This document shows, in pieces, positions 11,861 to 40,316 of a DNA stretch of 64,000 nt. The notes below the pieces were generated by a model. The model did not search any database. It worked only from the letters and a program-made list of their open reading frames with translations, and had not been told where the DNA came from. The position numbers and the translations under genes were made by a program. The DNA comes from Amaranthus tricolor. Taxonomy: Eukaryota > Streptophyta > Magnoliopsida > Caryophyllales > Amaranthaceae. Each line of letters opens with the position of its first letter. Within the stretch, counting starts at the first letter, position 1. The stretch is taken from assembly GCF_026212465.1 (NCBI RefSeq), contig NC_080063.1, positions 19,080,797 through 19,144,796 on the forward strand, written 5' to 3'.

Positions 11861-13357
11861 ATGGCTAACGAAAGCGACTATGAGTCGGATGCGGTACGTA
11901 AAGTTGTCGTTGGAAAATTAAAAAAAAAAAAAGGCGCACAAATCTAGGCCGCTGAACCATGGTTCAGGCGCACAGATCTGGGCGCCTGAACCAATCTGGG
12001 CGCCTGAACCATGGTTCAGGCGCATAGATCTGTGCGCCTGTGAATTTTTTTTTTTTTCCATATTAATTATTTTTAAATTATTATTATTATTATTGTTAGT
12101 ACTATTTTTTATTTTCCGTATTAATTTTTTTATTTTCCGTATAAATTTTTATTGTTGATAAATTTAAATTTTTAAGATTTTTTTATTTACGTAATGTTTT
12201 TAATTTGTTGTTGTTGTTGTCATTATTATTATTATTATTATTGTAGTCATTAATGTACTTAATTTATATTATTTATATTTCAAATTTGCAGGAGTTTGAA
12301 AACTTTGGAGACAACGTAGATGAGTTACATAGTTGGGCCGATGCGATAGCAATAACAATCGGTTTTCAATTTACACGTGCTTCTTATAAAAAGAAAGAAG
12401 GACGTTCTAGAGTTAGTGTCTATTTAAGATGTCACCGCTATGGTAATATTAGGGGTGATGTACATAATCTAGATAATACTGCCCGACCTGGTTCTAAAAG
12501 TAGAAGTTGCGGGTGTAAATTTATGATTGTAGGAAGTAGTCGTAAACCACCAGAAAGACCTTGGACGGTAAGGGTGTGTCCTGGTGAAAAGGGAAAACAT
12601 AACCACCCGTTCTTGGTGTACAGAGATGGTCATGTAAGGGCAAATAGGATTAATATAGACATTCGGGAGCACATACGACAGCTTAGTGCAACCGGAATGC
12701 AACCGGCCTTTATTATGAATTCTATTAGAGATAATTTTCCTAGTTTTTATGCTAGTATGAATCAGATATATAATATTAGACAATCAATAAGGAGAGAAGA
12801 GATGGAGGGTAGGACTCCCCTTCAACACTGTCTTCATATGGCCACAGAACTTAATTATGTGGTATGGACAGACTTGGATAACGAAGGGCAATTGAGCAAA
12901 CTATTAATTGCAAATCCTACCTCTATCCAAATGATACGTACGTGGCCGTATGTTGTGCTGATAGATACAACGTACAAAACGAACAAACAAAAGTGGCCAC
13001 TATGTGAAGTGATCGGAATGACGCCAGCCAATCACAATTTCTTGGTTACGTTTTGTTTGATGCGAGATGAGGCGGCTGTGTCGTATTCGTGGGTGCTGCA
13101 GGGATTGAGAGATATTTTCGGCACTGCTCAGACTCCTAGCGTCATTGTAACCGATCGAGACGAAGGTTTATCTGCAGCTATTCGTGACGTCTTCCCAGGT
13201 AAAAAGGCTTTGCTGATTCATTATTGTGGTTATATCTAATGATAATGTCTTAATTACGTTCAATGTTTTGTTTAATGTAGATGTGCGGCATTTGTTATGC
13301 ATCTGGCATATTGGCAACGACGTTGAGAACATGGTGGACAAGTTGTGTGGCGGCTAG
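11861..13357 (+). pseudogene. MULE transposase, C-terminally truncated
   Basis: Best model: exons 11861-11893, 12292-13198, 13281-13357 (1017 nt, 338 aa), all junctions in phase. The N-terminus MANESDYESD is acidic. Residues about 20-125 form a FAR1/WRKY-GCM1-type zinc module (CHRYG, SCGCK, HNHPF). A MULE transposase core follows, with first Asp in VVLIDTTYKTN and second Asp in VTDRDEGLSAA, then HLLCIWHIGNDVENMVDKLC. A TAG at 13355-13357 ends the frame, so the third catalytic Glu and the SWIM zinc finger expected downstream are missing. It would not be an active transposase, though it could still bind DNA. Intron 1 contains GC-rich palindromes. The start is inferred from phase and donor quality. 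Confidence 0.8.
11933..12043. repeat. GC-rich palindromic cluster (MULE, left side)
   Basis: About 110 bp of high-GC sequence in AT-rich surroundings, lying in intron 1 of the transposase model. It repeats the core CTGAACCATGGTTCAG, bounded by GGCGC and AGATCTG motifs. A perfect 24-bp palindrome spans 12000-12023. Runs of A precede it and runs of T follow it. Confidence 0.85.
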
Positions 13358-23221: not shown

Positions 23222-24610
23222 TTAATTTTCATCCGACCTCCTAGATTGTGCCCATAAATGCTCGATCAAGTCGTTCTTCAAAGCCATATGGACATTTCTA
23301 TCACGAATCTCCCCTCTCGAAGCTATCAATGTACCGAAATAATCTGGATCATAATGTCCGGGAGTGACGGTGAATGTTGTTGCATTCCTAGTTGAGGACG
23401 ACCACGGCATATTCTCAGGCTGTTCATCGGCAAACTCGAGTGGATCTTTATAATTTAAATAAGTATCACGCTCGTCTTCAACAATCATGTTGTGGATGAT
23501 GATGCAAGTCATCATAATTTTCCACAACAGATCTACAGTCCATGCCAAAGCAGGCTTCCTGATTATTGCGAAACGAGCTTGTAACACACCAAAAGCACGT
23601 TCAACATCCTTTCTCGCACTCTCTTGACGTTCAGTAAATAACGTATCCTTAGCTGTTTGAGGGGTCGTAACCGCATCTATAAATGTCGACCACTTTGGAT
23701 AAATGCCATCGGTGAGATAGTATCCTTTTGTGTAAGTGTTTCCATTAACTGTGAACAGAACTTGTGGAGCACGATTACTTATTATATCATCAAACACCGG
23801 AGAACGTTGTAGTACATTAATATCATTGCACGACCCAGGAGTCCCAAAGAAGGCGTGCCAAATCCATAAATCCCTAGATGCAACCGCTTCCAAGATAACA
23901 GTGGCCGTTTTAGATCGGCCTTGATACATTCCATTCCATCCAGCTGGACAATTTTTCCATACCCAATGCATGCAATCAATGCTGCCAAGCATGCCGGGGA
24001 AGTTTCTAGCCTCCCCTTCTCTTAGTAGACGCTGCATATCTTCCGGTGTTGGCTTGCGGAGGTACTCAGTTGCAAATTGAGCAATAACTCCATCGACAAA
24101 TTGTGAAAGACATTCTCTAGCAGTACTTTCACTAAGCTTTAGATATTCATCTACTTGATCAGCTGAACAACCATAAGCTAACATACGTATAGCCGCGGTG
24201 CATTTTTGAAGGGGTGAAGCACCAAGACGCATGGTAGCATCGGGACGTTGTTGGAAATAGCGATTACTTGCGCTTAATGTGTCCACAATCCGAAGGAACA
24301 AGGGTTTCCTCATACGAAACCTCCTTCGAAATACGGTATCATTGTATACCGGTTGATTACTAAAGTAATCTGCAACTAGATTGTCGTGAGCCGCTTCACG
24401 ATTTCTAGGCACAGTTTCCCTTCGTTTTCTTGGACGTTTTTGATTATCATGTTGTACTGAATTGTTAACAGCTACAAGCACCGACTTTTGCATCGCAAGT
24501 AAACGTTGACTCTCATTTATATAATTCATGACCATGTGATCATAAATTTCATCAGTTATACTTGAGGAGGAAGAGCTTGAAGAACTTGAAGAGATTGAAT
24601 CTAAGCTCAT
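23222..24610 (-). CDS. PIF/Harbinger DDE transposase (462 aa)
   Basis: Intact DDE_Tnp_4-type nuclease that cuts and joins the element's ends. Catalytic residues are visible: Asp212 in MLGSIDCMHW, Asp301 in YYLTDGIYPKW, Glu337 in KDVERAFGVLQ. A helix-turn-helix-like region precedes them (LQKCTAAIRMLAYG...ESTARECLSQF, residues about 134-171). Upstream are a Ser run (7-17) and a basic KRPRKRRE patch (58-65) likely to act as a nuclear signal. The Met at 24608-24610 is chosen because the extra upstream codons are hydrophobic and non-conserved in character, and a DDE protein of about 460 aa is usual. It acts with the MYB-like protein encoded just upstream on the same strand. Confidence 0.93.
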   Translation of the reverse strand: MSLDSISSSSSSSSSSSITDEIYDHMVMNYINESQRLLAMQKSVLVAVNNSVQHDNQKRPRKRRETVPRNREAAHDNLVADYFSNQPVYNDTVFRRRFRMRKPLFLRIVDTLSASNRYFQQRPDATMRLGASPLQKCTAAIRMLAYGCSADQVDEYLKLSESTARECLSQFVDGVIAQFATEYLRKPTPEDMQRLLREGEARNFPGMLGSIDCMHWVWKNCPAGWNGMYQGRSKTATVILEAVASRDLWIWHAFFGTPGSCNDINVLQRSPVFDDIISNRAPQVLFTVNGNTYTKGYYLTDGIYPKWSTFIDAVTTPQTAKDTLFTERQESARKDVERAFGVLQARFAIIRKPALAWTVDLLWKIMMTCIIIHNMIVEDERDTYLNYKDPLEFADEQPENMPWSSSTRNATTFTVTPGHYDPDYFGTLIASRGEIRDRNVHMALKNDLIEHLWAQSRRSDEN

Positions 24611-24944
24611 ATTGCATTTGGTGTTTTTATTTTGGTGTGTTTGTTTGTGATACAAGAAGATGGAAATCATATACCTTAAATAGACAAAAATAGGATAATG
24701 TTCGTCAGAAGATAAGATTTTGTTGAAACATAATTGGTGCACATAAGATATGGGTAAGATAAGGATTGTATGGTGATGAGTTTGACCAATGCATGCATAA
24801 TTTTGTACGGTTAGTTTTTTGACTAATGCATATACGTACAACAACATTACTAGTAGCAGAAACAATTCAAAAAAAGGAAAATAACTTGCGTACCTTACAA
24901 TACCCTTAAATTAAAATACAAACATTGCAAAAACTAAAATGAAA

Positions 24945-29958: not shown

Positions 29959-32900
29959 TCATAGTGTAGGAGTATGTGTTACATTAAAAGTACGTAATGA
30001 CCCTGGTTGTGAACCTAGCGAGCCAGCATCTGACGGGGAGCCAACGAATGAGGACGAAAGGGGAACCGAAGAGGGAGTAGTCGAGGAGGATGAGGCAACC
30101 AAAGACGAGTTAATAAGTGATGAAGTGGGGGCTAACGAGGTGATACGAGGAAGTTGTAACGAATCAACACGTCCTTGAAGCATATCTACTACTTTACTCA
30201 TCTCAGGCCGACTCGATGGGTTGGTTTTCACACAAGCTAAGCTAACTAAAATCATCTTCTTTTGAATCTCCCTATCTTCATAGCTCAACCTCTCATCCTC
30301 CTCTTGATCATCACCAAATTCAACTCTAGATTCAAGTTGTTCATATATCCATTGCGGAAAATATTTCTCACTACTCCTTTCAGTACCTTCAATATCAATA
30401 TTTCTTCTACACCCAACCATTTCCAAAACCAACATTCCGTAACTATAAACATCCGACTTATAAGAAACACCACCAAAACTCCTCAAAAACACCTCAGGAG
30501 CAATGTACCCAACAGTTCCCCTAGCCTCAGATATCGAAACTAAGCTCTCCTTTTGAGGGCATAACTTTGCAAGCCCAAAATCCGAAATCTTTGGACAAAA
30601 ATTTTCATCTAGGAGAATATTATGCGGTTTGATGTCGAAATGAAGGATTCTAGTGTTACAACCTCGATGCAAGTACTCGAGTCCTCTAGCAATTCCTACC
30701 GCAATTTTGAACAAGTCTTCCCAAGATAACAAATGATGATGATCTCTTCCATACAAGTACTTCTCAAGCGACCCATTAACCATAAAGTCATACACAAGAG
30801 CTCTATTTTGCCCTTCATAACAAAACCCTAAAAGTGTAACCACATTAACATGGTTAGTTTTACCTATACTTGCAACCTCATTGATAAAATCCTCTGCATT
30901 TCCTTGTGCCTTTTTAAGTATTTTTACTGCTACAAGATGTCCTGTATGCTGCACTTTCCCTTTGTATACTGCACCATATGCTCCTCCACCTAACTTTTCT
31001 CTAAAAGAATTGGTTATTTTCTTTAGATCAGAGTACGTGTATCTTTGTAGCCCAACTGTTCCATGGTTCCTTAAGAATGCCTCAACATCTGGTTTCGTTT
31101 TGTGCTGCGAATCCTCGTTTGTCGACCATTTTCGTGTTAAGTAGAAGCATATGCTGATCAATATGCATCCTGTGACAGCAGGTAAAGATGCTGCAAGGAC
31201 ATCAAGCACACAAGTTTATGGTCTTATGGACTTGGATATGTAAGCACAAAACGCAAAATCGGATGACAGGGTGAGAAAACGAAAGGTATGTTACCTATAA
31301 GCGCGATTTCAGACTTGGATAGGCTGTGCTTGTTTGGTGTGGAACCTGTTTTTGACTAGGTCACATTAGTGCATTAGAGCAACCAATTTGGCTCCGATAG
31401 AGTATATAAGATATCGTAGGGCTACTACCATCAGCTCAAGCTTTTGGTTGAGCCGGTTCTTTGACTGAATCGGCCAGGCTGCCCCCAAGTTGAAGACATT
31501 AGATAGTTTTCATGTAGGCCAAAGACCTTCAGAATTTTGAGACATTAGCATTGTTCACAAACATTATCCTAAAGACTAGAGGCCAGTCCCAACTGAGCTA
31601 AGCCTCTTCTTCACACCGCTCAATAACTTATACATGGTGTGTTTTATAAATGACTTTTTCATTGTTTTTTGTTAGCTTTCTACTTTTGGCTTTTTTGCTT
31701 TCAAACAGCCAAAAAATGCTTGATAAACGGCTTTAAGAAAGCCAAAAAACTGACTTTAAACCAAAACCCTAAAGCTATTTTAAAAAGCATTTTATTTACT
31801 ATTGCAATTTTCTCTAATAAACAGTCAACAGTAACAAACAAATAACCAACAACTAATTTTTACCAAATATCTCCATAACACCCGCATAAAACAAATGAAT
31901 CAACAAATCCCACCAATAACCTATTAGGCCGTGACAATTCATCACATAATCTCACCGTGGCCCACGGGTAACCCACGGATCAAGAGCGTTGACTTGCACA
32001 TACACTTAGTGAGGTTTATAGTTTCCTAAAACCATATGATAGTAGGAGGATTAGCCCACCCAATATATATATAAGTCCACAACCCACTATTTTATCGATG
32101 TGAAATCTTGTCTCACATTTGAAATATTTCCAACACAACCATTTGTCAAACAGACTCACAATCAAATACACCTAGTTAGTAAATTAAAGAATAAATGATC
32201 ATACCAGGAAAAGGGCACTTAGATTCATCATTACAAAAGCAAAAAAACTTATTAGAACTTGGGTCATGCCCACACTGTCCTCCTGATCTAAGACAATCCT
32301 TACACAACCCATTATTTGCACTCCATTTAAGCTCAAAACCATTCCAAGCAACTGCAGGAAAGTATGCTCCCCTTTTATCCATACCCAAATTATCTTCCAT
32401 ATGAATAGGAAGAAAAAGATGGCTAGAACAAGACCCTTGTGTAATATTTTTCTTCATCATCACATTCTTTGTCAACCAACAAACTGGTATATTTACAGGA
32501 CTCATAGGACAATCAAACGTCGAAAATGTCGTAAGATTACATAATCTTGCACAATTTCCATAAAACAAGGTAAGATTTGCATTCATTTCGGTGTATTGAA
32601 ACAAAGAGAAGTCAATACTAATGTTGGTTAATGAATTTGGACACCCTGAATTTGCTTTAAAGTCTTGTCTAGCTATATTAACAGTTGAAGATGTGTAATT
32701 TATGCTTATAAGGGTAAAATTTTGGGAGTTCATAATGATATGGGCATTTGTTTGGTTGCAATTTTGAAGCTCAAAACCAGGGTGTCCACAATATGATGGT
32801 CTGTTTAAGCCATAGAAAGGGTAGGTAATGTTGGTTAGGGACCCACAATTGAATGTTTGACTACAAGTTTTGTGTTCTTTGCTTAAATGGGAATGGTATG

Positions 32901-32970
32901 TAGGAAGATGATTGAGTAGTGTAAGGAAAATTATGAGATATGAAGATGAAACTAACATGTTTGCCTCCAT
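29959..32970 (-). CDS. LRK10L-type receptor-like kinase (three exons, 682 aa)
   Basis: Exons 32205-32970, 31295-31345, 29959-31190; 2049 nt in total, all phases agree. A signal peptide (about 1-26) is followed by a Cys-rich GUB_WAK_bind region starting CSQTFNCGSLTNITYPF and a WAK-associated C-terminal module (WSANNGLCKDCLRSGGQCG). A membrane span lies at about 275-290 (LPAVTGCILISICFYL). The kinase has P-loop GGGAYGAVYKG, Lys362 in VAVKIL, catalytic loop HFDIKPHN (456-463) and DFG at 476-478. HFD in place of HRD makes it a non-RD kinase, usual for LRK10L/PR5K-type receptors and common among immune receptors. The C-terminus is a Ser/Thr-rich tail. Plasma-membrane receptor; ligand unknown. Intron 1 holds two repeats. 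Confidence 0.93.
31398..31460 (+). repeat. Diverged copy of the 213-bp repeat family
   Basis: GATAGAGTATATAAGATATC followed by GCTACTACCATCAGCTCAAG matches the unit starts at 3941, 4154 and 4368. It lies in intron 1 of the LRK10L-type gene. Confidence 0.6.
31630..31935. mobile_element. MITE-like element in LRK10L intron 1
   Basis: Shares TCTCTAATAAACAGTC, TTTTTACCAAA and repeated TTTTTGGCTTTTTTG words with 45195-45515 and, more weakly, 56490-56720. Ends are not sharp enough to define a target duplication. Confidence 0.5.
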
Positions 32971-33485
32971 TATGATTTTTGAGGATTTTTTTTGGGGATT
33001 TGATGTATGATGGATTGGAATGAAGGATATGTGATTATATGAATGGTGGGTTTTATGGTCAATATCAACTTGTCAATTAGTGGGGTTTAATTTAGTTTAT
33101 TGATATGGAAAATTTGGAATTTGGTTATTAGAATTAATTGTTTTCATATTTTTGCTTTCCTCTATCAAAAAGTCTATTAGTGGGGGGTTATTGAAACTCT
33201 ATCCAATTGAACTCCCTATTTTAAATGTATATTTCTTTTCGTAACATATTTGTATTTTTTGACTTTTCGCGCAGTCTAATACGCTAATTCAATCCTTAAT
33301 ACCTTTAATTATACATAATAAAAAAATTATAAAAATTTAATAAAAATATCTTGTATTGGGACGAATCAAACAAGATCAAACTTCAATATGTTTTAACTTA
33401 TAAATTAAAAACTAATCACAAATAAAGAATAATAAATAGATAGTGTATTGCCTTATAATGTAGCAAATAATATGAAACAATTTAA

Positions 33486-34796: not shown

Positions 34797-34837
<41 letters not shown>
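34797..34837. repeat. Poly-T run (41 nt)
   Basis: Homopolymer just downstream of the kinase stop codon. On the minus strand it is a poly-A tract about 60 nt past the stop, as a polyadenylated retrocopy would leave, but no target duplication was found. Confidence 0.9.
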
Positions 34838-34839
<2 letters not shown>

Positions 34840-36587
34840 GGTAAAAATTTATTTGCATCATATTTTGGGCCCATCGCACTTCTACTCACCCCTCCTTATC
34901 TGGGTCCTGATAAAATCGATGGAGAAAGTTGAGTTGCATCTTCATTAGTTAAAGTTCCATCAACTGTCATAACTGTCAAGGAGTACTGATTTACAGCCTC
35001 TGAAATAGATGCACCCTCTAAAACTTTAACCACTGTTGACATAGATGGCCTCTTTTCTGGTTCACTATGCAAACATGACACACCCAAAATTAAGGTTTTC
35101 TTTATTTCCTCAGCATATTGTTGCACATCCTCACCACATTCATCGAGTAAACCCGAAAATTCATTTGCTTCAACGTTCATTTTAACCATCTGAATCAGTG
35201 TCTTACTCTCGTCAGGCCGACTGTAATCCAAATTCTTCCTACCAAACACAACTTCCATCACTAGAACTCCGTAGCTGTACACATCGACTTTTTCCATGAT
35301 CTTCCTGCCTAAAAATTCGGGCGCAAGATACCCGCGAGTTCCCCTCATTTGAGTCATTACATGACTTTGGTCTCTATCGATTAGCTTCGCTAGGCCAAAA
35401 TCAGATAACTTTGCGTTATATTCTTCGTCTAAAAGCACATTTTGGGGTTTTACATCGAGATGGGCTATTCTCTTTTGACAATCTTCATGCAAATAAGCAA
35501 GTCCCTTAGCAATGTGCAGAATGATTTTTCTTCTAGTTACCCAAGTAAGGGCATGTTTCGAATCGGAGTTAAAAACCCATTTGTCTAGTGATCCTTTGCT
35601 CATGTACTCATACACTAGAAGTCTTTGGACTTTTTCTGCACAAAACCCAACCAGTTTCACCAAGTTTACATGGTGTATACTTCCTATTGTCTGAACTTCT
35701 GTCAAAAATTCCTTCCTTCCTTGTCCAACGTGATCCAGACGCTTAACAGCAATGCGTGTTCCATCATCTAATTTTCCTTCGTAAACAGTACCAAAGCCAC
35801 CTCCACCGAGTTTCCTGTTGTCATCAAAGTTGTTGGTTGCCATTTTTAAGTTATTGTATTTGAACGTCAGCGGAGAATCAAGTTCTACGTGCAAGTTCCA
35901 TTGTTCTGCATCCTCGTCGTGTTCTAACCACCATTTTCTCTTATATGCATATACAAAAAACCATAACGCAGCCATTAAAATCGTAGGAATCAAGGTTACT
36001 AACAGTATCTTAGCAGTTTTTGTCAAAGATTTGTGTCTTTCGTCTGCAGGGGTGGTAGTGCTGTTGTTGCTGCGTCCAATGTTTTTGTTCCCCGCTACAA
36101 GAACAGTCACGGAGGACTTAAAATTTGGCACTTCACCCGACAGATCATTGTTGGATACATTCAGTTGTTTGAGCCGTTTCAAGGTTGTTAAAGTTTCGGG
36201 TATAGTACCCGTCAAGTTGTTATCGTTCAAGTACAACTCGTTCAAAAACGTCAAGTTTGCGAAAGCAGGCGAAATGGTACCCGTAAATCCCTGCTTGGAT
36301 AGATTAACTTTAATGATGTTCCCAGACGCATCGCAAGTCACAAACGGCCATTTGCTGCACGCATTGTTACCCTGCCATGCCTCAGCAAGTTTCAATGGAT
36401 AATCTAATGCTCCAGCAACCTTTAACAATGTCATGACTTGAGGATTGCAATCTCCTGGAACATTCTTGCAGAATAAGTTGTTTGTCCCGAGGGATACCAA
36501 CACGCTTTCTGGGAAAACTGGAAACGGACCTTGAAGCTTGTTGTTCTGCAATGATATATTGAGTAATCGAGGCATCGATATCAAGGA

Positions 36588-36590
36588 TTA
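36588..36590 (-). other. Premature TAA in the LRR region
   Basis: The frame reads TGVVP-stop-SLISMPRLL, where related LRR proteins have a continuous VP.SL turn. A single C-to-T change (CAA to TAA) would explain it. Translation stopping here would give a 486-residue secreted LysM-LRR protein without membrane span or kinase. Confidence 0.9.
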
Positions 36591-37324
36591 TGGGACGACT
36601 CCAGTCAATAAGTTGTTTTGCAGTTGTAGAACAGAAAGGCCGGTGCTATTAGAAAGGTCAGGAATCGGGCCGGTAAACTTGTTTCCCTGTAGCCAAACTT
36701 GTTTTAAGAAGCTCATTCCGGCAAGTGCATCAAGCGGGCCAGAGAGACCTATATATTGATTTTCCAGCCACAGATTCTCCATCTTGGTTTTTTGAAGGGA
36801 ATTTGGTATCAGTCCTGTCAGATTGTTATTCGACAGTCTCAGGGTTTGCAAACTTTTCAGGAAATCAAAAACATCCGGTATGCTTCCAATGAGATTGGTA
36901 TTTTTAGCATAAAATTCTACCAAAATTGTAGAGTCAGACAACTCTGCAGGGAAAGTCCATGGATTGAGATGTGGGTTGTCGTCTATGGAAAGAATTTGAA
37001 GGCGATTAAGGCCAGAAAATGCTCCATGAGGAACAGACGAGAAATTGTTGGAGTCGAGGTGTATTTCTTGGAGTAGTTTAAGGTTGGCAAAAGATGGGAT
37101 AGAACCCGAGAGGCGGTTGTTTTGGAGGGAGATCGTTGTTAGCTGAGAAAGAGAACTGAGATCGTCCGGAAGGCTTCCAGATATGTTTTGGGATGGTATG
37201 CTAATAGATCTCACGAACCCATTGTACGTGCAAACAACCCCAGACCAGATGCAGAAGTTGGAGCCTGACCAACCCGATACTTGATTCAGCGTGCCAGCCA
37301 TTTTCTTCATTACTGCTCCATCAG

Positions 37325-37752
37325 CTGATGTTGAGAAAGTAATAAGAATATAAGAGAAGCAATAAGAAAAGGTATCATGTTGATACCATACAAACATATG
37401 TTGTATCAGCTCGACCAAATGTTTAAGCTGATGCCTGGAGCTCCATAATATATTATATACTCTATCATATGCCTTGTATTGAGCTTTGCAAATTAAATAA
37501 AATCTTAAAATAGTTGTTAGTTGATCTTCATTAATCTATGAGCTTTTATCTTTACATGTAACAATCTTGGTGGAAATCATCATCACCATCATCCTACATC
37601 CCCTGTATATCCCGCTCATGGAAGTTATGATCAAGGGCCGGGGAAGGTTGGAAGGCAGACTGTACCTTTATCAAAAGAGATAAGGAGGTTGCGGCTAGTA
37701 AGATCCTCGACTCAAGAATAAATTGCAAATGAAAACGAATGAAAGAACGTAC
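37325..37752 (-). other. Intron of the chimeric gene, made largely of repeat sequence
   Basis: On the minus strand the donor is GAAG|GTACGT and the acceptor AACATCAG|CTGATGG after a pyrimidine-rich tract. It contains an RTE LINE 3' tail (37572-37690; ATGAGCGGGATATACAGG, then GATGATGGTGATGATG) and a diverged copy of the 213-bp repeat family (37395-37466; GATAGAGTATATAATATATT). The apparent hydrophobic leader in frame before the LRR exon is read from the second repeat and the pyrimidine tract. Confidence 0.7.
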
Positions 37753-38476
37753 CTTCAGAAGGGGTAGCAAGGTTCTGCAGAACTGGACCTTTAAGAGGGA
37801 CATCAATGATCTGCCCAGCTAGTATCGTTGTAGGATCAGTAATATTGTTCAAGCTGATTAAAGTTTCGCTTGTGGTTCCAAACTCGGCTGCAACTTGATT
37901 CAGGGTGCTCTTTGGTGCCATCACGTGTGCGTAATGCACAACCTTCTGCCCCTCGACTTCATCACAGCTGCAGGGTAACGGAATCCACAGCTTCTCGTCC
38001 ACCAAGATCAAGTTTCCATTTTCGATGTGATTTGCATTCTGAATCTGCTCATAGGTCACTGATCCAGAATAAACCCCATTTTGAGTCACCAAACCAGAGA
38101 AAATCTTATTTGCTATATTGTACAAAGTATCCCCCTTTTCAACAGTGTATATGGGGACTCTGTCAGAGATCCCAGCGCCATTTATGCACCGGCAAGGGAA
38201 AGGAATCTTGACTGTCTGATTGTTATAGACGGTGAAGTTTTCAGGCGTCGAAGGAGGGAGAAGGTTGACTCCTAAAAGAGAACTCAGGTCTTTTACCTGG
38301 AATAATGACCGGATATGGGCAAGTGTAGTAGTGTTACGAGACACATATCCTACTAAGGCCTCACATGTAGCATTGTCAGTCGTGCACTTGAACGACGGTT
38401 GTGTTTGGGCTTCGATGGATTTCCGAGCAAACAGAAACATGAAAGTGAGTGATGTCAAAAGGCTAAGAACACCCAT

Positions 38477-39707: not shown

Positions 39708-40316
39708 TTACTTCTTGGAAGAACCACCACCACCACGAAGAGATTGCCAAAAAACAGGCCAATTCTTTTGAGCCTCTTGCCAACCTAAAAAAGAACCTTC
39801 CCTCATGGGATCCCAACTAGAGGACACAATCCCATAACTAACCCCTAAAAGGGCAGTCCCAAAGAAGATAAAGGATACAATGAAAGGTACCCAAGTTGGA
39901 ACATCAATTTTCAATCCAACTTTCAAGTAATAGAAAAAGGGAAAAAATGCTAATCCTATAAACAAAGGTATCCCAACAGAAAATGCCATTCTATTCATCA
40001 TTCTGTTTGTCACTATCTCTGGAATTATTCCTTGTTCTTCCTCTTCTTCTTCATAATCATCATCTTCATCTTCTTCTTCATTGTTGTAGTTTTTAAGGTT
40101 CTTGCTTTTTTTGCTCTTTTTTTGGGGGGCACCAAACCCTTTTGGGTTTGGATTTCTTAGAGTTGCATTAAGATGGGTGGGTTTTGAGGACAGAAAGAGG
40201 AGATTTTGATGGATATTTGAGGTATAAAATGGGAGTTTTGAAGTGGGTTTTGTGTTGGGTTTTGATGTATTTGGGCAGATTAATGTGGGAGCTCTTTGGA
40301 AAGAGCAAGACTCCAT
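39708..40316 (-). CDS. PAM68: PAM68-like chloroplast protein (202 aa)
   Basis: Intronless frame from MESCSFQRAPTL. Residues 1 to about 50 are Ser/Thr/Pro-rich and acid-poor, a plastid transit peptide. A basic patch (QKKSKKSKNLK) and an acidic stretch (EEEDEDDDYEEEEEEQ) follow, then NRMMNRMAFSVGIPLFIGLA with the first membrane span and PFIVSFIFFGTALLGVSYG with the second. The C-terminal SSWDPMREGSFLGWQEAQKN is the family signature. PAM68 is a thylakoid membrane protein that helps early photosystem II assembly in Arabidopsis. Length and layout match the family; whether this copy is PAM68 itself or a paralogue cannot be told from sequence alone. Confidence 0.9.
   Translation of the reverse strand: MESCSFQRAPTLICPNTSKPNTKPTSKLPFYTSNIHQNLLFLSSKPTHLNATLRNPNPKGFGAPQKKSKKSKNLKNYNNEEEDEDDDYEEEEEEQGIIPEIVTNRMMNRMAFSVGIPLFIGLAFFPFFYYLKVGLKIDVPTWVPFIVSFIFFGTALLGVSYGIVSSSWDPMREGSFLGWQEAQKNWPVFWQSLRGGGGSSKK

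Follow-up and report, generated by a model that had tools for sequence, protein, structure and literature searches.

The locus and its features

The stretch of DNA analysed here, referred to throughout as the window, comprises 64,000 nucleotides of Amaranthus tricolor (contig NC_080063.1, positions 19,080,797 to 19,144,796). On its minus strand lie an exon that codes for a LysM ectodomain and, 3′ of it, a long frame that codes for leucine-rich repeats (LRRs) and a protein kinase, with a putative intron between the two. The features, in coordinates of the window, are as follows.

38476-37753, minus strand: LysM exon 1 (241 codons plus one base; start codon 38476-38474), an open frame for a signal peptide (identified by eye) and a LYM2/CEBiP-type LysM ectodomain (Pfam LysM 1e-20, two plant LysM models)
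37753-37788, minus strand: 36-nt extension of exon 1 past the ordinary LYM2 exon-1 donor position (VPLK/G), coding for a GPVLQNLATPSE-type linker
37325-37752, minus strand: putative phase-1 intron, GTACGT...CATCAG, 428 nt
37325-37378, minus strand: probable relic of a TMK signal peptide, frameshifted, which would now form the intron's 3′ end, pyrimidine tract and AG included
37324-34896, minus strand: LRR-kinase frame (exon 2)
36591-37324, minus strand: TMK-like LRR N-cap helix, Cys pair and first LRR solenoid (TMK3 ectodomain 7brc_A, E 6.1e-58, residues 2-244; Pfam LRR)
36590-36588, minus strand: in-frame stop TAA midway through the LRR domain, codon 487 of 1051 in the joined frame
35943-36587, minus strand: rest of the LRR ectodomain and probable transmembrane helix (7brc_A residues 251-432, 4hq1_A residues 274-455)
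34896-36587, minus strand: second half of the broken frame; the database protein P0001 starts at the first Met beyond the stop
35025-35825, minus strand: protein kinase domain, non-RD (HLDVKPQN), not TMK-like by identities and trees (Pfam Pkinase 1.1e-51)
39711-40316: gene for a PAM68-like chloroplast protein (DUF3464, 1.3e-51), lying upstream of the LysM exon
29962-33069, minus strand: pieces of an LRK10L/WAK-type receptor kinase (one frame with GUB_WAK_bind and WAK_assoc, another for the kinase)
23225-24910 and 12247-13236: transposon genes (a 562-aa DDE/Plant_tran frame next to a frame with a NAM-associated domain; part of a MULE transposase)

Exon 1 ends on base 37753 and is followed directly by the donor GTACGT; the acceptor CATCAG ends at 37325. 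A sequence-only reading of this DNA had proposed that a phase 1 donor here meets an acceptor in the matching phase, with codon 242 completed as GCT, and that the joined length is a multiple of three. Both points hold: the codon was read from the DNA and the two exons add up to 724 + 2429 = 3153 nt. The GC content of the putative intron is 0.355 as against 0.452 and 0.419 in the flanking exons, and the 9-mer of the strong donor, AAG^GTACGT, has two minus-strand occurrences in the window and no plus-strand one. A phase match was rejected as sole proof of a fusion, the chance of one being one in three. The joint nevertheless stands above chance because two predicted proteins from quinoa have the same joint.

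The LysM exon and the absent LYM tail

The LysM exon matches OsCEBiP (5jcd) over residues 29-228 with an E value of 1.3e-43, far more strongly than it matches LysM receptor kinases (best 3.7e-08). The LysM ectodomain with CxC-spaced cysteines that characterizes the LYM/CEBiP proteins is present, as are six cysteines that vary little or not at all across the LYM alignment. When compared with two LYM2 paralogues over 191-192 codons, with the first 25 aligned codons left out, the exon has 57 differences at first, 35-39 at second and 117-118 at third codon positions; third-position changes are thus about three times as numerous as second-position ones, and dN is 0.29-0.31. At the level of codon comparison, this shows that the exon has kept its frame under long-term constraint relative to the LYM2 paralogues. 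The genome search (519.85 Mb, 45 contigs) gave 13 LysM matches; DNA was read around C5:31976, C1, C2:32411 and C3, and four further places lie on C8, C5:27957, C12 and C2:35880. The two LYM2 genes of the genome match P0133 and P0125 of Amaranthus hypochondriacus at 88% and 95%, respectively, over exon 1.

That the exon stands without the rest of a LYM gene, namely the Cys-rich tail and GPI signal, had already been remarked and was upheld by searches of the window, in which full-length LYM2 proteins matched the LysM exon only (E <= 0.01) and seven LYM tails searched alone gave a best E of 0.38. As a positive control, tail exons were found at E <= 0.01 within 10 kb in both ordinary LYM2 genes of the genome. 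The first introns of these genes measure ~3 and ~6 kb, and the window contains ~37 kb downstream of the LysM exon; a LYM tail lying farther downstream was considered and rejected, the whole window having been searched and none found.

The LRR ectodomain and the in-frame stop

The LRR part has the double LRR solenoid of a TMK-type ectodomain, followed by a probable transmembrane helix at about 36008-35943, read by eye. No ordinary signal peptide can be read in frame ahead of it, in agreement with the sequence-only reading. The same reading overlooked the TAA at codon 487; apart from it the joined frame of 1050 codons is unbroken. Homology, also to the TMK3 and TMK1 ectodomains, continues on both sides of this codon, with no gap at the stop when the frame is aligned with six relatives. 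The genome-wide search likewise gives '1 TAA' for this frame, and no donor matching GTRNGT was found in exon 2 before the stop. The window copy is therefore unable to encode the whole receptor and would give at most a secreted LysM/half-LRR protein of 486 aa; it is probably a pseudogene or null allele, and probably does not work as a receptor. Departures from columns invariant in the other sequences number 15/251 in the window, 4/240 in spinach P0003 and 7/243 in P0002, and 21, 24, 21 and 31 in P0004, P0005, P0006 and P0007, respectively. Any decay of the window copy is mild at most, since P0004-P0007 depart from the invariant columns more often.

The kinase domain

The LRR and kinase had been assigned together to the TMK type; the assignment is correct for the LRR part but not for the kinase, which is 38-41% identical to nine canonical TMK kinases, reads HLD where a TMK-type RD kinase reads HRD and falls outside the TMK kinase group. 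H-L-D is found in 7/7 kinases of the window and P0002-P0007, the latter being 67-79% identical to the window, and HRD in the 12 TMK kinases that group together. The window kinase is 44% identical to P0064, a hop protein named TMK2, and 43% identical to the neighbouring LRK10L-type kinase. The TMK2 name of P0064 is doubtful, because this protein has H-F-D and, in the kinase tree, falls together with the neighbouring LRK10L-type kinase.

When the genome was searched with P0002, the best-scoring kinase matches outside the locus and the TMK loci were L016 (50% identical), L017 (53%) and L018 (46%), with 44 of 1643 candidates scored. All three are long genes in a single frame that carry B-lectin domains and share the C-terminal SGPR; no B-lectin ectodomain was found in the window. 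Two kinase trees were built, from 21 and from 20 chosen rows rather than from all matches, L026 and L031 having fallen to a motif or length filter in the second, and in the tree of 20 rows the window and P0002-P0007 form one group (98/95), with a poorly supported fork to the nearest neighbour. Judged by these comparisons the kinase is probably of the G-lectin-RLK type. It would derive from a third parent, besides the LYM2-like and TMK4-like genes.

Relatives with the same architecture

A protein search with the LRR-kinase part listed 120 of 6903 proteins, and two of the 120 combine LysM, LRR and kinase. Both are predictions from quinoa, P0002 (1054 aa) and P0004 (1008 aa), paralogues whose LRR parts are 62.5% identical, and both carry LysM, LRR, transmembrane helix and kinase in the single open frame that is broken in the window by the TAA. 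The residues at the joint are LATPSE-ADGAV in the window, LATPSA-ADGAV in P0002 and TAPSQ-VDGAA in P0004. Related sequences with the same order and the same joint are thereby provided by two predicted proteins. The proposal of a single LysM-LRR-kinase polypeptide fares less evenly: the quinoa predictions and the trees speak for it and Pfam matches LysM, LRR and Pkinase in the parts, but the frame of the window copy itself is interrupted. The LysM-LRR-kinase architecture is probably real, on this comparative evidence. Other relatives are modelled in part. P0005 (quinoa), P0006 (Silene) and P0007 (Cuscuta) are predicted proteins with LRRs and the same kinase type, without LysM, and their own N-terminus reads like a signal peptide; spinach P0003 (762 aa) is likewise modelled without LysM, whereas the models of P0122, P0123 (Amaranthus hypochondriacus) and P0124 (Bienertia) contain LysM alone.

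In the LysM tree (window plus 24 chosen proteins; unrooted, drawn with a midpoint root), 19 other LYM rows stand apart from one group (100/98) that unites the window, P0002, P0004, P0122, P0123 and P0124, although the place of P0004 is unsure because of its long branch (1.16). In the LRR tree (window plus 23 chosen proteins), the window, P0002, P0003 and P0004 form one group (100/100), P0005 falls with the canonical TMK4 of quinoa and P0006 with core TMKs. The trees conflict in one respect, in that the kinase tree joins the window with spinach and the LRR tree joins P0002 with spinach. The LysM and LRR groupings suggest that LysM was captured once, before P0004 split from the rest, and that LRR ectodomains were exchanged more than once on this kinase type.

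Two of the relatives deserve separate mention. P0005 has the non-TMK kinase, yet its LRR groups with P0056, the canonical quinoa TMK4, pointing to what may be a recent ectodomain swap or gene conversion. P0007, from the parasitic Cuscuta campestris, is the only non-Caryophyllales protein, among those checked, that has TMK-type LRRs with this non-TMK kinase; it was possibly gained by gene transfer from a host, but its LRR branch is long and weakly placed.

In the P0002 search of the plant's own genome (44 of 1643 candidates scored), the window was the only listed place that matches the LysM part of P0002 and the only one listed with LRRs and this kinase type in one frame. The next best match, L013, ends as a TMK-type kinase; this TMK-like locus (C1:45151290-45156503) has one TGA inside its P0002 match. 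A search with residues 1-262 of P0002 gave two matches in 2504 candidates, one being P0002 itself and the other a LysM protein of Diplodiscus that carries another domain, PF01554; it missed P0004 and is thus weak as evidence of absence.

An AlphaFold2 model was made of quinoa P0002, not of the window protein, from a 25-row alignment (mean pLDDT 75.6, pTM 0.48). It has a confident LRR part, a LysM head of moderate confidence and a low-confidence linker at residues 235-241, and its N-cap helix starts at residue 247, adjoining the joint at residue 248; in the model, the LysM-LRR joint falls between domains. A Foldseek search with the model placed TMK3 (7brc) at rank 1 (TMt 0.95) and OsCEBiP (5jce_B) at rank 46 (204 columns, rmsd 2.8, TMt 0.55).

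One gene or two, and the state of the window copy

We consider it likely that the locus is a disabled relative of a LysM-LRR-non-RD-kinase chimeric receptor specific to the amaranth/chenopod lineage, for which we infer the splicing, ligand, signalling and order of events from sequence. The main rival, which we regard as unlikely, is that a short secreted LysM protein and a start-less LRR-kinase are two neighbouring genes, placed in one and the same order in several species, whose phases fit and which gene predictors have mis-joined in quinoa. The LysM-only models P0122-P0124 and the LRR-kinase-only model of spinach would be expected in that case, and an ATG-led stretch resembling a signal peptide does lie just upstream of the window LRR, though it is frameshifted. 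The LysM-only protein P0122 bears on the question from both sides: the residues VLQNLATPS before the donor are common to the window, P0002 and P0122, and the tblastn match of P0122 runs on past the donor for some ten codons, to 37721, but few residues are identical there and agreement with the window after the donor drops to about 2/10 residues (hand count). Two neighbouring genes are further argued against by the recurrence of the same joint in two paralogous quinoa proteins, and by a window LRR part without in-frame signal peptide beside a LysM part without LYM tail.

The chimeric receptor might, alternatively, be intact in other plants of the species, the stop being a local allele or an assembly error. 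That the TAA is the only break in the joined frame and that the kinase domain scores well would agree with this, but we think it distinctly improbable. P0001, a 559-aa database protein that stands for five member sequences, begins after the stop and lies on a contig of 20,436,632 bases, as against 20,432,796 for C17 of the genome searched, which suggests that a second assembly has the TAA as well; P0051, the one named Amaranthus row among the 120 listed, is a canonical TMK; and the window departs from invariant columns more often than spinach or P0002, if less often than P0004-P0007. There is very little to recommend the idea that the truncated 486-aa secreted protein is itself functional, for example as a decoy: its frame is intact up to the stop, but P0002-P0007 have no stop at that position and half an LRR solenoid without its C-cap is unlikely to fold well.

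A run of 41 A bases at 34797-34837, resembling a poly(A) tail, begins 59 bases past the stop codon of the kinase frame and is preceded, at a distance of about 10 bases, by AATAAA. Least credible of all is that the LRR-kinase part is a retrocopy, for which this A run and the absence of introns from the part would speak, given that no stretch of more than 8 bases is shared between the end of the A run and two 5′ stretches searched (no target-site duplication), that the putative intron before the LRR is present and the quinoa proteins have the same layout, and that the nearest B-lectin RLKs are also single long open frames.

How the joint may have arisen

In the chimeric-receptor reading, three parents are combined: a LYM2-like gene would have given the signal peptide and LysM modules, and a TMK4-like gene the LRR ectodomain and transmembrane helix, on the kinase described above. 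The combination of TMK-type LRRs with the other kinase, which also occurs without LysM in P0005, P0006 and P0007, would have come first and LysM would then have been added. On the LYM side, exon 1 of the two ordinary LYM2 genes of this genome stops at AAAG^GT in phase 1; one of the two has a second exon beginning CAG^CTTGT, which likewise completes GCT. The old LYM2 donor in the window is still GT but weak (GTCCAG), with the strong donor 36 nt downstream of it.

On the TMK side, the DNA upstream of the window LRR can be aligned to the signal-peptide codons of TMK loci L014 and L013. From the relic ATG at 37378, the old TMK signal peptide looks frameshifted, because ITFSTSADGAV is read in the frame of the LRR and MIPFLIASLIFLLL in another; such resemblance needs caution, as a tract of pyrimidines reads as Phe, Leu and Ser whatever the frame. 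Six loci were read around the corresponding boundary. The TMK4 locus L014 has, at the matching boundary (S-S-A-D-D), TCCTTTCCTTTTCTTC^AG in phase 1 with 16/16 pyrimidines; L013 has a phase-1 AG one codon farther on, with 12/16 pyrimidines, and phase-1 AGs also lie close to the boundary in L015 and L019, with 8 to 10 of 16. No phase-1 AG was found near the boundary in L021, and none in L020. Signal-peptide codons could thus serve as pyrimidine tract and acceptor, and therefore no new splice site would be needed.

Under the proposed mechanism, the captured LysM exon would splice from its phase-1 donor, shifted 36 nt downstream, to the AG inside the TMK signal-peptide codons, such that the LysM signal peptide replaces that of the TMK and the LRR N-cap is left intact. 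If the copy were unbroken, a GlcNAc-type ligand (chitin being the default guess) would be bound by the LysM head, and co-receptor pairing would relay the signal along the TMK-type LRR stem to the non-RD kinase. The species of the window has most likely lost the receptor, because of the in-frame stop. As to the fuller proposal, that a working two-headed LysM and LRR non-RD receptor kinase evolved in amaranths and chenopods by splicing a LYM exon into TMK-like signal-peptide codons and was kept in quinoa and lost in this species, we hold it to be evenly poised.

Comparison with known systems

Plant receptor kinases are mostly classed by a single ectodomain class, and CEBiP-type chitin sensing needs a separate kinase partner. 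A LysM-LRR-kinase was not found in the literature searched. The combination is not mentioned in the passages considered from PMC7333395, PMC10834447, PMC4234491, PMC5485960 and PMC10152718, and in PMC7333395 the phrase 'LRR and LysM domains' refers to separate proteins. If the reading as a chimeric receptor is correct, a single natural chain would carry a head resembling CEBiP, a stem of LRRs and a kinase, a natural three-part receptor building that would be useful for receptor engineering. It would also offer a testable route by which receptors gain ectodomains with no new splice site having to arise, in that signal-peptide codons, which are pyrimidine-rich and often end in S-A (TCA-GCN), would be ready-made phase-1 acceptors.

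Each of the known systems resembles the locus in part. LYM2 and CEBiP share with the window the signal peptide, the LysM ectodomain, the paired cysteines and the phase-1 end of exon 1, but continue into a Cys-rich tail and GPI signal where the window has an LRR-kinase exon next. TMK1-4 (LRR-IX) share the two-solenoid LRR ectodomain, N-cap and Cys pair; in the window, however, the TMK signal peptide looks frameshifted and the kinase is non-RD, at the low identity to the nine TMK kinases given above. The B-lectin (G-type lectin) RLKs of the genome, which we take to be SD2-5-like, provide the best-scoring kinases, in single long frames with the C-terminal SGPR, but their ectodomain is B-lectin and not LysM or LRR, and they read HCD as against HLD in the window. 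The LysM receptor kinases CERK1, LYK and NFP have a LysM ectodomain, transmembrane helix and kinase in one chain; they are without LRRs, and the LysM part of the window is nearer to CEBiP.
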